A stretch of 33,776 nt of DNA from Paracoccaceae bacterium (lineage in GTDB: Bacteria; Pseudomonadota; Alphaproteobacteria; Rhodobacterales; Rhodobacteraceae). Below are positions 29,788 to 33,776 of the stretch, one piece after another. The position numbers were made by a program, and so were the translations under genes. The stretch is from the NCBI GenBank assembly GCA_027484915.1, contig JAIXSA010000121.1, forward strand, positions 1-33,776, read 5' to 3'. The notes beneath the pieces were generated by a model. It made no database searches and was not told the origin of the DNA. It saw nothing but the letters and a program-made list of their open reading frames with translations. Position 1 is the first letter of the stretch; each line of letters opens with the position of its first letter.

Positions 29788-31353
29788 TTACTCGCCGTGG
29801 TACGAGACGGTCTTCACATCCTCGCCCGGCGCGGTCTTCTGACGCCGGATGATCAGGCGATTGAGGGCGTTGATATAGGCCTTGGTCGAGGCGACGATCG
29901 TGTCGGTATCCGCCGAAGATCCTGTCACGATCCGACCTTCCTCCTCCAGCCGGACCGATACCGTCGCCTGCGCGTCGGTCCCTTCCGTGACGGCGTGGAC
30001 CTGATAGACCTGCAGCCGCGCCTTGTGCGGGAAAAGCATCTTCACGCAGTTGAAGGCCGCATCCACCGGGCCATCGCCGGTGGCGTCGATGTGGTGGTCC
30101 TTCCCGTCGATCGTCAGGATCATGTCGGCTTCCTGCGGGCCTTCGGTCCCGCAGATGACCCGCAGCTTCTTCAGCTGGAGGTATTCGTAGGCGTCGTTGG
30201 TCTGCTCGTCACTGACCAGCGCGATGAGGTCGTCGTCGTAGACCTCCTTCTTGCGGTCGGCCAGCGCCTTGAAGCGGACGAAGACGTCGTTCAGCTGGTT
30301 GTCGGCCAGCTCGAACCCCAGCTCCTTGAGCTTCGCCCGCAGGGCGGCCCGTCCGGAGTGCTTGCCCATCGCGATGTTCTTCTGGGTCAGCCCGATGTCC
30401 TCGGGCCGCATGATCTCGAAGGTCTGGACGTTCTTCAGGACCCCGTCCTGATGGATGCCGGATTCGTGCAGGAAGGCGTTCTTGCCGACGATGGCCTTGT
30501 TGAACTGGACCGGGAAGCCCGAGACTTGGGAGACGCGGCGGGAGAGGTTCATGATCTTGGTGGTGTCGATGCCGGTCTGGAACGGCAGGATGTCATTGCG
30601 GACCCGCATGGCCATCACGACCTCTTCCAGCGCCGTGTTTCCCGCGCGTTCGCCGAGGCCGTTGATCGTGCATTCGATCTGTCTTGCCCCGGCTTCAACG
30701 GCGGCCAGGGCGTTGGCGGTCGCCATGCCGAGGTCGTTGTGACAGTGGGTGGCGAAGATGATCGTGTCGGCTCCCGGGACGCGGTCGAGGAGCATCTTGA
30801 TGATCTTCGCGCTCTCCATCGGGTAGGTGTAGCCGACGGTGTCGGGGATGTTGATCGTCGTCGCCCCGGCCTTGATCGCGATTTCGACGACGCGGCAGAG
30901 GTAGTCGGGTTCGGTCCGGGTCGCGTCCATCGGGGACCACTGGACGTTGTCGCAGAGGTTCCTCGCGTGGGTAACCGTCTCGTGGATCCGCTCGGCCATC
31001 TGGTCCATGTCGAGGTTCGGGATGGCGCGGTGCAGGGGGGAGGTGCCGATGAAGGTGTGGATGCGGGGGGACTTCGCGTGGCGAACGGCCTCCCAGCAGC
31101 GGTCGATGTCCTTGAAGTTCGCGCGGGCGAGGCCGCAGATGGTGCTGGTCTTGGCCCGCTTGGAAATCTCGGAGACGGCGGCGAAGTCGCCTTCGCTGGC
31201 GATGGGGAAGCCGGCCTCGATGATGTCGACCCCCATCTCGTCGAGGAGGGAGGCGATCTCCAGCTTTTCCTCGTGGGTCATGGTCGCGCCGGGGCTTTGC
31301 TCGCCGTCGCGGAGGGTGGTGTCGAAGATGACGACTTTATCTTGGGTGGTCAT
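29788..31353 (-). CDS. leuA: 2-isopropylmalate synthase
   Basis: LeuA condenses acetyl-CoA with 2-oxoisovalerate in the first committed step of leucine biosynthesis. The 521-residue enzyme has DTTLRDGEQSPG (11-22), the metal-binding HCHNDLG (203-209), GLGERAGN and HESGIHQDG. The C-terminal 120 residues contain the regulatory LeuA dimer domain that senses leucine. ATG at 31353 follows AAAAGGA. A leader peptide and stem structures upstream (31365-31511) suggest expression is also controlled by leucine supply. The gene is monocistronic here, with a palindromic terminator downstream. Confidence 0.96.
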   Translation of the reverse strand: MTTQDKVVIFDTTLRDGEQSPGATMTHEEKLEIASLLDEMGVDIIEAGFPIASEGDFAAVSEISKRAKTSTICGLARANFKDIDRCWEAVRHAKSPRIHTFIGTSPLHRAIPNLDMDQMAERIHETVTHARNLCDNVQWSPMDATRTEPDYLCRVVEIAIKAGATTINIPDTVGYTYPMESAKIIKMLLDRVPGADTIIFATHCHNDLGMATANALAAVEAGARQIECTINGLGERAGNTALEEVVMAMRVRNDILPFQTGIDTTKIMNLSRRVSQVSGFPVQFNKAIVGKNAFLHESGIHQDGVLKNVQTFEIMRPEDIGLTQKNIAMGKHSGRAALRAKLKELGFELADNQLNDVFVRFKALADRKKEVYDDDLIALVSDEQTNDAYEYLQLKKLRVICGTEGPQEADMILTIDGKDHHIDATGDGPVDAAFNCVKMLFPHKARLQVYQVHAVTEGTDAQATVSVRLEEEGRIVTGSSADTDTIVASTKAYINALNRLIIRRQKTAPGEDVKTVSYHGE

Positions 31354-31364
31354 GGGGGGTCCTT

Positions 31365-31441
31365 TTCTTAGCTGCCGGGTGGGGGGCGCTGGTCACCTCT
31401 GAGCGGTCGCGCCCGGGGGCACGCTCAGAGGCGGCTAAGAA
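31365..31441 (-). promoter_or_regulatory. Leucine attenuator: two nested stems before leuA
   Basis: In the mRNA, TTCTTAGC (31441-31434) pairs with GCTAAGAA (31372-31365), 8 bp, extended by GCC/GGC after one mismatch. Inside it a perfect 10-bp stem, CCTCTGAGCG (31431-31422) with CGCTCAGAGG (31405-31396), forms. The outer 5' arm is made of the Leu codons CTT CTT plus AGC of the leader peptide; the outer 3' arm ends directly next to the leuA Shine-Dalgarno (AAGGA, 31364-31360). No T-run follows either stem, so translational rather than transcriptional attenuation is suggested: a ribosome stalled for lack of Leu-tRNA would open the outer stem and free leuA. Confidence 0.65.
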
Positions 31442-31511
31442 GGAGGAGGCCACGGGGCATCGCGGGGCTGGAGGCCCGTGCGGTGGGGGTGATGTGGGGT
31501 CCCGTGGTCAT
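31425..31511 (-). CDS. leuA leader peptide (leuL-like)
   Basis: A 28-codon open frame starts with ATG at 31511 (MTTGPHITPT...) and ends GLLLLSRL-stop. Five of the last seven codons are Leu: CTC CTC CTT CTT, then AGC CGC CTC. It lies 71 bases ahead of the leuA ATG and its Leu codons take part in the stem described separately. Leucine-rich leader peptides that sense charged tRNA-Leu are well known upstream of leu genes in enteric bacteria; its occurrence here is read directly from sequence. There is no Shine-Dalgarno, but a TATAGT box ends 9 bases before the ATG, so the message may be leaderless. The other minus-strand frame through this region (31623-31435) is Pro/His-rich and is judged spurious. 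Confidence 0.75.
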   Translation of the reverse strand: MTTGPHITPTARASSPAMPRGLLLLSRL

Positions 31512-31519
31512 GGGGCCGG

Positions 31520-31525
31520 ACTATA
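31520..31525 (-). promoter_or_regulatory. -10 box TATAGT of the leuA leader
   Basis: TATAGT on the minus strand with 8 bases between it and the leader ATG. No good -35 hexamer is seen at 16-18 bases upstream, where the sequence is C-rich. Confidence 0.45.
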
Positions 31526-31715
31526 CGGGGGAAATCGGGGAAGGGAAGGGGATTTTTCAGGGGGGGGCGGTGGGGGCCGCAAGGGACTCCCGCGTGGTGC
31601 GCCGCGCGTGGTGGGAATCCCAAGTGGTTGATTTTATTGTGGGATTTCTGTGGGCGTTAGGGATTTGTTAAGGGGTTGGGGTGGTCTCATCTTGAAAAAC
31701 GCGATCACTCTAAAC
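31526..31715. other. G-rich spacer upstream of leuA, left edge of the second AT-richer island
   Basis: No gene. Plus-strand G-runs to about 31620 include a direct repeat GCGTGGTG about 14 bp apart (31590-31612), then AT-richer sequence with GTGGGATTTC and the TTAG-N7-TTAA motif. The same order of elements is seen before the MORN gene at 4050-4090. Confidence 0.45.
31657..31671. promoter_or_regulatory. TTAG-N7-TTAA motif, second copy
   Basis: TTAG (31657-31660), seven bases, TTAA (31668-31671), flanked by GGGCG and GGGG as in the copy at 4072-4086. Confidence 0.25.
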
Positions 31716-33260
31716 CTACCGCTTTTGCAGACTCTTGAATGCCTTCCTTGCGCGCCTCTCGGCAGCGCGCTTTTGTTGCCGAGACATCCTTTCCGGCTCT
31801 CCAGTCGGCGTTGCCGGAAACTCCTGTGTGGAAACCGATGAGAAGACAACTCGATCATCTCTCATGATATCGAACAGTTGCTCGTTCTCGACAACTTCCC
31901 TTTCAAGTTCCTCCGTCCACTCTTCAATCTCTAGCATCGCCAGGTCCTCAGATGATCCGAACTCGTGATGTGGACCGCTGTTCCCTTCCATAGCAATCCC
32001 AATTGCGCGCTTAAGGTGACGATTTCGCCGCAAAACCGCATATGCATAAGTGGCAAGGATTTGGTTTCTTACTCGTCGATACTGATCATAGCCGTCTTTC
32101 AGGGAAACACGTGTGGGAAAAGGCAAGAATACGAATACGTATGCACAAAAAGGGTCTGGAGCGTCATTAAGTGGAAGCACAGATCGCGCAAATCTGGCGT
32201 TTGGTTGCTTTCTACTTGCTTCAAGTGCGCCCATAAAGGCTTCGGATAGAGCACGCCTGCGCGTTCTATCTTCTGCTGCCATTATTCTGAGCGCTCGTTC
32301 TATCTGCTGCGTTGTAACATCCATTTCTGGGGGAGATATGGCCGTGCCCGCCAGTACGGTTTCCGTGAACAAGCCAATCAACTTATCCCATGCGAAGGAT
32401 ATCTCATTGGCTTTCTGCCGTTCTTGGTACTCCGGTCTGGCAACTAGCTTTCCGTAAGTGCCATTTTCAATGTAGTACTCCGTTTTGGAGTGGTCGCCTG
32501 AAACTAGAAAGCGATGATTTCCGTTTTCATCTTCATTGTGCATATAGAAAGAAAGCAAGTCGGCTTCATTCGCCGCATGAACGATACGACCCGATCTGAT
32601 TGCTTCGGCTCGAAGGTTCAAGTAACGTATGAAATCATTGGCTGTATCCAATTCGGAAAGAACAATATCAAGCCCCATTCTATCAAACACGTGAACGAAT
32701 GGCCCATCAGGGTCAACGTCACCTAAAAAGAATGGTTCGCACGGTTCCTCAGACTTTGGAGCGTGTTCATCTCCTTTAATGTTTGATGCTATGATGAAAG
32801 TTGTACTTTGACGGCCGAAGTGGGCATTAGAAGCTTCTTCCGCACCCAGCGCCACGACAACACCATGAACACGTCTATGCTCAAGCGGGGGCAATTCCAA
32901 AGGCAAGGGAAACGTGCAGTCTTTATCTATGAATACGCGATCGGGGTGCTCTCGCAGCCAGCGCTCCGCCCCTCGGACTTGGTCTACGGATTTCTTAATT
33001 GCTCGACGAAACCATCTCTTCCAAGGCGTCGTTACGTCTATTTCGCTATTCCATGTAATTGACTTGTCGCTAAATATTAAGACATCGTTGCCAAACACAA
33101 CGAGCAGATCACATATCTCCTTTCCGTCACCAGTCTTGCTTCCCCTATTGTCATTATAAATGTTTGGATAAGACCAAAGATCCAAAAACGCTCGATCTGC
33201 CAATGCACTAAGGTATCTTTCACTTTCTGTGGTTCCTGCCCCTCGAATAATCGGTTTCAA
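31716..33260 (-). CDS. 514-residue orphan protein with PD-(D/E)XK-like N-terminal domain
   Basis: Soluble, no signal peptide. Residues 10-105 contain KEICDLLVVFGNDVLIFSDK (47-66), then WKRWFRRAIKKSVDQVRGAERWL (starts at residue 80). A helix, Asp51 at a strand start and Ser64-x-Lys66 at the next strand recall the PD-(D/E)XK/NERD fold, with Ser replacing the usual Glu/Gln. I recall uncharacterised proteins with the same FGN-IFSDKS and GAERW wording. The central 350 residues are not recognised. The C-terminus (MSRQQKRAAERRARKAFKSL) is a basic helix, possibly nucleic-acid binding. The start is TTG at 33260 behind AGGGGGTGAT; there is no nearby in-frame ATG. Codon use is much more AT-rich than in leuA, indicating transfer. 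It stands alone, with a repeat block 70 bp upstream. Confidence 0.75.
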   Translation of the reverse strand: MKPIIRGAGTTESERYLSALADRAFLDLWSYPNIYNDNRGSKTGDGKEICDLLVVFGNDVLIFSDKSITWNSEIDVTTPWKRWFRRAIKKSVDQVRGAERWLREHPDRVFIDKDCTFPLPLELPPLEHRRVHGVVVALGAEEASNAHFGRQSTTFIIASNIKGDEHAPKSEEPCEPFFLGDVDPDGPFVHVFDRMGLDIVLSELDTANDFIRYLNLRAEAIRSGRIVHAANEADLLSFYMHNEDENGNHRFLVSGDHSKTEYYIENGTYGKLVARPEYQERQKANEISFAWDKLIGLFTETVLAGTAISPPEMDVTTQQIERALRIMAAEDRTRRRALSEAFMGALEASRKQPNARFARSVLPLNDAPDPFCAYVFVFLPFPTRVSLKDGYDQYRRVRNQILATYAYAVLRRNRHLKRAIGIAMEGNSGPHHEFGSSEDLAMLEIEEWTEELEREVVENEQLFDIMRDDRVVFSSVSTQEFPATPTGEPERMSRQQKRAAERRARKAFKSLQKR

Positions 33261-33329: not shown

Positions 33330-33520
33330 GGCCCGGAATCAAGGGCGAAGCCCGCCGGGCCGTGCCCTCCCTCCCCCCGGGAGGGCGCTTTTGCAGCGGT
33401 GGTCGGAAGAACTGCGGGGGGAGGGGTTGAGGGATAAAGTGCTTCGATCCGCCGTTGCGGCGCCCGCCCGAGGGAGGGCGCGGCCCTTTCGTTGGGTGGG
33501 GTGGTGGGCAGATTGCCCAC
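33330..33520. repeat. Long intergenic repeat, copy 2
   Basis: Matches 5313-5500 in order and orientation. Its first hairpin is better preserved here: GCCCTCCC and GGGAGGGC followed by GCTTTTG, a terminator-like unit. It ends in GTGGGCA/TGCCCAC (33504-33520). The gap 33261-33329 should hold the promoter of the 514-residue orphan. Confidence 0.75.
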
Positions 33521-33559
33521 GTTACGGTTCGTCGGAAGGGGATGGTGGACGCGGGGGAT

Positions 33560-33582
33560 GGTGCGCTGAAGCGCACCCTACG
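33560..33582 (+). repeat. Short palindromic repeat ending CCCTACG
   Basis: GGTGCGC (33560-33566), TGAA, GCGCACC (33571-33577), then CTACG. Same family as 5525-5551 and the arms at 15800-15864. Confidence 0.7.
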
Positions 33583-33647
33583 ATGGCCCCCCCACCCCAG
33601 CCCTCCCCCACGGAGGGGGGAGGGAGGCGCTTGGGGGTTGGGGAGTT

Positions 33648-33670
33648 GGTGCGCTGTAGCGCAGCCTACG
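33648..33670 (+). repeat. Short palindromic repeat, slightly decayed
   Basis: GGTGCGC (33648-33654), TGTA, then GCGCAGCC (33659-33666) and TACG. One base (G for C) breaks the right arm. Confidence 0.6.
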
Positions 33671-33686
33671 GGGGCGGGCGTTGAGG

Positions 33687-33757
33687 TGTCATCGCCGCGT
33701 AGGCGGGGGTCCATGTCGGGTGACCGGGTTCTGGATCCCCGCCTTCGCGGGGATGAC
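33687..33757. repeat. Inverted pair of REP-like palindromes, second copy
   Basis: TGTCATCGCCGCGTAGGCGG (from 33687, one decayed unit) faces GGATCCCCGCCTTCGCGGGG plus ATGAC (33733-33757). CGCGGGGATGAC at the very end of the window may begin a third unit. Confidence 0.65.
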
Positions 33758-33776
33758 AGGGGGGCGCGGGGATGAC

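Follow-up and report, generated by a model that had tools for sequence, protein, structure and literature searches.

A conserved leucine-rich leader frame upstream of leuA as a candidate translational attenuator in an alphaproteobacterial family

RESULTS

A short leucine-rich frame precedes leuA

A tiny gene without annotation lies ahead of the leucine-synthesis gene leuA in the 33,776-nucleotide stretch of Paracoccaceae DNA analyzed here (contig JAIXSA010000121.1, hereafter the window), and folding models together with comparisons among relatives make a leucine-sensing translational attenuator controlling leuA the probable best explanation for it. The frame occupies 31425..31511 on the minus strand, where 28 codons opened by ATG and closed by TGA encode MTTGPHITPTARASSPAMPRGLLLLSRL, with five Leu among the final seven codons, and a gap of 71 nt (31354-31424) separates its stop from the leuA start codon at 31353. 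A preliminary description, made from the letters of the window, had given these coordinates, the 28 codons, the Leu count, and the 71-nt distance correctly and had assigned no strand. The downstream gene (29788..31353, minus strand, reading from 31353 to 29788) matched both NCBIfam NF002087 and TIGR00973, equivalogs of 2-isopropylmalate synthase, above cut-off, and its product carries a C-terminal LeuA_dimer (allosteric) domain; it is the gene that would be under control.

Two further features of the neighborhood were recorded. A 514-codon frame with a TTG start (31716-33260, minus strand like the leader) lies further upstream, and a search of its product against Pfam and PADLOC gave no match. 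Several short palindromic, REP-like repeats of the CGCCTTCGCGGGGATGAC type were seen by eye at the right end of the window, from about 33340 to 33776.

The leader is conserved across the genus and most of the family

The leuA gene was sought in the genome of the window and 40 relatives. The genus sample comprised 25 genomes (the window's own plus 24), with a usable leuA 5' end in 18, or 19 when one additional locus (L020) is counted. A Leu leader was found before leuA at all 18 genus loci, 71 to 91 nt upstream, and its ending read LLLLSRL at 15 of them, with LLLLSCL, ALLLSRL, and LLLSRL at the other three (L006, L016, and L017, respectively). For the family, sampled as one genome per genus, leuA was present in 119/120 genomes; 117 loci from those 120 genomes and one from another search made up a set of 118, from which G052 had been left out (its leuA match begins at residue 178). 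The Leu leader was detected at 101 of the 118.

When the regions upstream of leuA were dinucleotide-shuffled, the same leader test was passed by 0/180 sequences for the genus and 19/1180 for the family, and none of the antisense strands passed it (0/18 and 0/118). The preliminary description had considered a chance run of Leu codons at this place improbable, a judgment that these counts bear out. Among the named loci of the genome collection, 50/80 passed (shuffles, 13/800; antisense, 2/80). A class group, in which leftover loci of the first leuA search were placed, among them the same-genus L020 with a leader, passed at 31/96 loci (shuffles, 23/960; antisense, 2/96), a figure from which RLxRP-type leaders may be missing because the test demands four Leu in ten codons.

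By eye, and among the matches listed, named leaders ended in LLLLSRL in Rhodobacterales, in LLLLSRP and similar strings in Rhizobiales, and in LLLRLSRP in Rhodospirillales, acetic acid bacteria, and Sphingomonas, and several SAR11-like and gammaproteobacterial loci were without this leader type. Also among the matches listed, the gammaproteobacterial leuA loci L090, L105, and L110 showed a Leu leader of another kind, with LLP at its end. Within the family, L184, L186, L190, L191, and L193, as well as L183 and L208, end in LLILIRL or a similar string with an Ile codon inside the Leu run, and leaders of that type may perhaps sense isoleucine too. Two family loci in which the chosen frame was unlike the leader (L151 and L173) were dropped after the leader test, which reduced the 101 loci to 99 for the tests of pairing and of the Shine-Dalgarno sequence (SD); both were still counted for the promoter columns and the stop hairpin, and the frame test described below used all 118 loci.

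The leader start codon lies at the predicted transcript start

Column composition was examined in those 71 of the 119 genus and family leaders that have just one in-frame ATG. A -10-like box, TATAGT, lies at 31520..31525 (minus strand), 8 nt before the leader ATG, and in 61 of the 63 leaders without a tie (8 ties; n = 71) the unique best position for a box of this kind fell 6 to 9 nt ahead of the ATG. The base at -1 was C in 91% of the 71 leaders, and no evident SD preceded the leader ATG. The -35-like position (TTCCCT, 31542..31547, minus strand) was assigned by geometry because TTGACA was not matched; in the family, positions -36..-32 relative to the leader ATG have the consensus TTTYC. The leader promoter thus has a good -10 box but TTTYC instead of TTGAC as its -35, which is perhaps an activator site or the mark of another sigma factor.

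The integrity of the frame was assessed by a noncircular test, in which the stop was located from hairpin letters alone and the start from an ATG, whatever its frame, preceded at 6 to 9 nt by a -10 box (5/6 matches). Among the 118 family loci, 16 were without the hairpin motif and 10 without a promoter-anchored ATG, and the remaining 92/92 each had one open frame joining the two, with 4 to 7 Leu among its last 10 codons. From the spacing of 6 to 9 nt and the frame shared in 92/92 loci, the leader start codon falls at the predicted 5' end of the transcript. The leader mRNA is therefore probably leaderless, with its transcript start inferred from the promoter.

Codon choice in the Leu run was skewed. 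The codon at position -4 encoded Leu in 117/117 leaders, as CTT in 87, CTA in 29, CTC in 1, and CTG in 0, whereas the Leu codons of 29 family leuA genes (n = 1061) were CTG in 675 cases, CTC in 236, TTG in 80, CTT in 67, and CTA in 3. This pattern supports a constrained Leu run, with rarity and pairing inseparable as its cause.

The Leu codons are predicted to pair with the region upstream of leuA

The preliminary description had also noted a stem reaching the leuA ribosome-binding site, and such a stem is present as a prediction: the fold of the leader-leuA region had a minimum free energy (MFE) of -66.4 kcal/mol (z -4.7), and none of 200 shuffles was as low. In this base stem, stem A, the 5' arm UCCUCCUUCUUAGC (31434..31447, minus strand) is formed by the Leu codons together with that for Ser, and the 3' arm (31360..31372, minus strand) comprises GCUAAGAA and the leuA SD, AGGA (AAGGA at 31360-31364). 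The MFE structure and the pair probabilities predicted both arms, and the arm-swap tests described below also bore on the first. Across the genus, CTTAGC stood opposite GCTRRG at 18/18 loci, fully Watson-Crick in 15 and with one G-U in 3. Pairing of AGGA with the Leu/Ser segment had a probability of 0.91 in this genome and at least 0.5 in 15/18 genus loci, the exceptions being L009, L011, and L016.

Outside the genus, whole-region MAFFT alignment visibly misaligned stem A, and alignment-free swap tests were therefore used. When 3' arms were swapped among 99 family genera, the pairing energy rose from -15.0 for native combinations to -12.9 (sd 0.25), and 0/10000 permutations reached the native value, a significance inflated by some amount here and in the other permutation and swap tests, which ignore kinship among genera. 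The signal was concentrated in the Leu arm (z -8.9), the two preceding leader segments giving z -2.0 and -2.7, and pairing of the Leu arm with leuA coding sequence, used as a swap control, gave z -0.3. By position, the family partner of the Leu arm lay mostly at -38..-19 of leuA (z -6.8), with z -2.2 for -19..0, where the SD lies. An SD motif was present in 36/99 family loci, and in 9 of these its pairing with the Leu segment had a probability of 0.5 or more. A fixed 7-nt core pairing was found in 40/99 family loci (permutation mean, 22.8; maximum, 35). The swap test gave z -5.7 for 56 other named and class loci and z -1.6, no clear stem A signal, for 21 Rhizobiales loci, a set assembled from the titles of their records (that of L054 says only Alphaproteobacteria). 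With these counts for core and SD pairing in the family and this Rhizobiales value, a universal stem A was rejected. Comparison of the sequences indicates instead that stem A co-varies across the family but that its predicted lock on the SD is largely confined to this genus.

In named Rhizobiales loci such as L053, L061, L077, and L083, a Leu leader and stop hairpin were seen with neither stem A nor a clear promoter-anchored start, and the hairpin showed, by eye, constant GGCCGGCCGGGC and GCCTGGGCG strands. Rhizobiales leaders possibly use a different output mechanism.

The leader stop codon sits in a conserved hairpin with a possible pseudoknot

A second structure, hairpin B, contains the leader stop. 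Its 5' arm, CCUCUGAGCG (31422..31431, minus strand), spans the last Leu codon and the UGA, and its 3' arm is CGCUCAGAGG (31396..31405, minus strand). Complementary arms enclosed the stop codon in 18/18 leaders of the genus, 96/101 of the family, 43/50 of the named set, and 30/31 of the class group, compared with 75/1000 control placements. Over 52 sequences the outer helix of hairpin B was paired in 99.4% of cells; covariation within the hairpin was slight in the family because its letters scarcely change. The relatives' leuA upstream regions, compared as the preliminary description had proposed, kept the frame, the Leu run, the start position, and the stop hairpin in most of the family. The refuting outcome named in that description, relatives lacking a conserved frame or Leu run, was not observed.

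The 5' side of hairpin B itself co-varied with the segment upstream of leuA (z -5.9), and this signal led to the search that found helix C. The 5' strand of helix C, GGGCGC (31409..31414, minus strand), lies on the loop side of hairpin B, where GGYGC occurs in 93 of the 95 family leaders passing the hairpin test; the 3' strand, GCGCCC (31384..31389, minus strand), lies downstream of the hairpin. A GCRCC partner was present in 86/93 family linkers versus 388/1860 dinucleotide shuffles, and swapping linkers lowered the helix C match from 6.39 to 6.11 (z 4.35, 0/10000). The flanking pair was Watson-Crick in 52/86 linkers against 28.1 expected (0/10000 permutations), with C-A in 25/86, and the next pair outward gave no signal (27/86 versus 26.6 expected). 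Helix C and the outer stem of hairpin B could form a pseudoknot, and helix C and the inner stem of B would be mutually exclusive.

The element is found almost only at leuA

A covariance model, R1, was built from the Leu codons and hairpin B, with rows supplied by 49 of the 120 family genomes. It gave 117 matches in 115/120 family genomes, 115 of which lay upstream of leuA on the leuA strand, at a median of 64 nt from the leuA match and within 30 to 200 nt in 106 cases; the other two were weak second matches (E about 0.0065). In a class sample, 34 matches were obtained in 33/192 genomes, with 31 at leuA, 38 to 416 nt before it. The element therefore sits at leuA and hardly elsewhere. A search of the window with Rfam gave no match at gathering score, and around the leader, at E up to 5, there was no match to Leu_leader (RF00512). 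Weak Rfam matches to a CRISPR repeat, the HDV ribozyme, and a snoRNA (E up to 5) each lay far below their own cut-off and were rejected, and for six relatives Rfam gave one tRNA and nothing else.

Cupin genes inserted between leader and leuA

Thirteen elements lie far from leuA, and the loci were read for nine of them. In six (L124, L139, L209, L205, L192, and L185), a cupin gene stands between leader and leuA; its product has 118 amino acids, and the L205 copy matched PF07883. A cupin gene was also seen by eye directly before leuA at the named loci L033 and L086. A partner of the Leu arm of 7 to 10 bp was present before the ATG of the cupin gene, the new first gene, in 5/6 loci, and L192 had one of 5 bp. 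The duplex was better on the cupin side than on the leuA side by at least 2 kcal/mol in L139, L209, and L205, about equal in L192 and L185, and favored leuA in L124, where the leuA SD also pairs. As read from these predicted duplexes, the cupin loci lean towards a lock on the ribosome-binding site of the first gene.

DISCUSSION

A model for leucine-dependent control of leuA

Attenuation by leucine, which the preliminary description had suggested for this lineage, is supported as the best explanation in our modeling, drawing on the conserved frame, Leu run, start, and stop hairpin. Two features characteristic of amino-acid attenuators were found: a short open reading frame with codons for the end product lies just upstream of the biosynthetic gene, and in the genus RNA folds over these regulatory codons are predicted to gate expression.

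In the mechanism that we propose, RNA polymerase would start at or within one or two bases of the leader ATG, and a ribosome would load on the leaderless mRNA and read the leader. With charged Leu-tRNA plentiful, the ribosome would pass the Leu run, reach the UGA in hairpin B, and leave. The Leu codons (CUC CUC CUU CUU) and AGC would then pair with the 3' arm and the AGGA of the SD to form stem A, with hairpin B, and perhaps helix C, forming inside it, and leuA would be translated poorly. When leucine is scarce, the ribosome would instead stall on the Leu run and cover the 5' arm of stem A, leaving the leuA ribosome-binding site free. Leaderless initiation, stalling, and the leucine response are the parts of this scheme that we infer; computation supplied the conserved frame, the spacing from promoter to ATG, the skewed Leu codons, the hairpin at the stop, the co-varying stem A, the partner of the hairpin loop, the missing U-run, and, for this genus, the modeled sequestration of the SD and its release by a stalled ribosome.

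The cost of opening the SD was modeled at 30 C with an assumed ribosome footprint. In the genus, this cost fell from 9.5 to 5.0 kcal/mol with the ribosome stalled on the Leu run, a gain of at least 2 kcal/mol in 13/18 loci and of less than 2 in 5/18. A ribosome at the stop codon gave 4.9 kcal/mol, as low as the 5.0 of the stall, and so a terminating ribosome would have to depart fast. At L001 the modeled gain was 7.4 kcal/mol compared with 0.6 (sd 1.3) for shuffled linkers including the SD (0/60), and L003, L014, and L008 likewise gave 0/60; these four loci were hand-picked, three of them for large gains. Modeled release averaged 0.8 kcal/mol in the family, where 24/99 loci gained and 2/99 lost at least 2 kcal/mol, and was 1.4 in Rhizobiales (7/21 gaining at least 2) and 1.7 in other named loci (10/29). 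The attenuator reading is accordingly most secure in this genus and weaker in the family, other members of which may have a looser or a different output.

Alternative explanations

The best surviving alternative, itself unlikely, is transcriptional attenuation, in which the ribosome, stalled or released, would determine whether an antiterminator or a terminator forms ahead of leuA, or would expose RNA to Rho. This is the classic kind of control for amino-acid operons, and a leader with competing helices is present here. Termination by Rho, which does not depend on a U-run, could operate in Rhizobiales and among those family members in which the SD is not sequestered. A terminator-like U-run was missing, however: no run of four or more T was found within 15 nt after hairpin B (0/113), and up to leuA a T4 occurred in 6/117 loci and a T5 in 0/117, and an intrinsic terminator was rejected on these counts. 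The predicted stem in this genus, moreover, includes the SD. Because the Leu codons are predicted to pair with the SD and no terminator-like U-run was found, control of leuA translation is favored over transcription termination in this genus.

A considerably less likely reading holds that the leader frame is incidental and that a structured RNA is itself the direct binding partner of leucine, uncharged tRNA, or a regulatory protein. The compact fold, the base stem predicted over the SD in the genus, the possible pseudoknot, and the strong conservation of the hairpin letters in the family would suit such an RNA, and for the LEU element of Actinobacteria PMC1262725 favored a regulatory protein. 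An incidental frame is nevertheless hard to reconcile with one that runs open from the promoter in every locus where both ends could be placed, or with a codon -4 that remains Leu throughout while it switches between CTT and CTA. As for a ligand pocket, the unpaired bases 3' of GGCGC, the part inspected, vary across 52 sequences.

A functional small protein, or an upstream frame whose sole role is to supply leuA with reinitiating ribosomes, appears very improbable. The leader holds His-Ile codons at a fixed place, codons 6 and 7 (31491-31496), as CAT ATC in the family and CAC ATC here, and these stay constant while the other N-terminal codons drift; this conservation could speak for a peptide with a function. 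Yet over codons 2 to 18 of the 14 genus leaders with 28 codons, variation at codon positions 1, 2, and 3 was 0.21, 0.22, and 0.23, and comparison by pairs gave 412 nonsynonymous and 267 synonymous differences (the pairs are not independent). No strong purifying pattern between the start and the Leu run was found in these 14 leaders, and a functional peptide was rejected on that ground. Leader frames have been proposed as reinitiation antennas in the part of PMC4833913 available to us, which places the peak effect at 10 to 13 bp; the genus leaders stop 71 to 91 nt from leuA, beyond that distance. A chance Leu run in a GC-rich leader can be dismissed, such frames arising in 1.6% of family shuffles as against 18/18 genus and 101/118 family loci, with the shared frame and the R1 matches at leuA standing against it as well.

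Significance and comparison with known systems

A leucine-sensing translational attenuator, if this reading is true, would add a leucine regulatory RNA, represented in 115/120 sampled family genomes, to a class with few charted amino-acid attenuators. Leaders of this kind precede leuA in most sampled genera of the family, and leuA is probably translated mainly when leucine is scarce. In the open literature searched, we recognized no report of a leuA leader in Alphaproteobacteria, and an earlier description may exist.

The leu operon leader of enterobacteria (Rfam Leu_leader, RF00512) has consecutive Leu codons before leuA and works as a terminator/antiterminator attenuator. The element described here has no match to that covariance model, and no terminator hairpin followed by a U-run, of the E. 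coli trp and leu kind, was found before leuA. In erm-type translational attenuators, a drug-induced ribosome stall on the leader frees a sequestered ribosome-binding site; here the stall would come from a shortage of Leu-tRNA, and it is the regulatory codons that are predicted to pair with the SD. Leader peptides of ilvB and ilvI in Alphaproteobacteria were reportedly described by Vitreschak et al. in 2004 and predicted to be transcriptional; they are branched-chain amino acid leaders of the same class at other genes. The part of PMC1273637 available to us credits the ilvB leader peptide to Vitreschak et al. (2004). A survey of Rhodobacterales with Rfam attenuator models (PMC3766115) suggested, in its available part, that the motifs are gammaproteobacterial in origin with very few transfers.

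The tryptophan attenuator trpL of S. meliloti (rnTrpL), as described in the available part of PMC10117765, makes its leader peptide from a leaderless mRNA, the leader AUG being its first codon, and it yields a small RNA. To judge from that account, both are alphaproteobacterial leaders, and the one described here, from the 6- to 9-nt spacing of its -10 box, is probably leaderless too. They differ in that the S. meliloti system senses tryptophan and gives rise to a small RNA, whereas no terminator-like U-run is present here.

The closest likeness is to the actinobacterial LEU element (Seliverstov et al., 2005, PMC1262725), a leuA leader for which the available part of that paper describes a Leu run and a base stem between the Leu codons and the leuA SD, with a pseudoknot and an alternative hairpin inside that stem. 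According to that text, mutations in the Streptomyces leuA leader had effects inconsistent with classical attenuation, because of which its authors held classical attenuation unlikely in Actinobacteria. As far as that text describes it, the LEU element shares with ours the gene, a leader frame with a Leu run, and the want of an obvious terminator. It also shares the base stem between Leu codons and leuA SD, predicted here in 15/18 genus loci and in 9 of the 36 family loci with an SD motif. The pseudoknot described there may have a counterpart here in helix C, which has a partner in 86/93 linkers, against 388/1860 shuffles, and one co-varying flank pair, with no signal at the next pair. On the same partial account, the two, compared here in topology, differ in phylum, and in our element the predicted transcript begins at the start codon and a conserved hairpin holds the stop codon. 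Because a similar topology occurs here with clear evidence of a kept leader frame, the present element bears on the unsolved working of the LEU element. We tentatively suggest that the Leu codons themselves may act as the anti-Shine-Dalgarno half of a lock on leuA that includes a pseudoknot and is read by ribosomes starting on a leaderless mRNA. This would be a purely translational attenuator of LEU-element topology, full in the genus and looser in most family genera, and either an old element common to two phyla or a repeated invention. The resemblance of CUC and CUU codons to the 16S anti-Shine-Dalgarno sequence would favor repeated invention.
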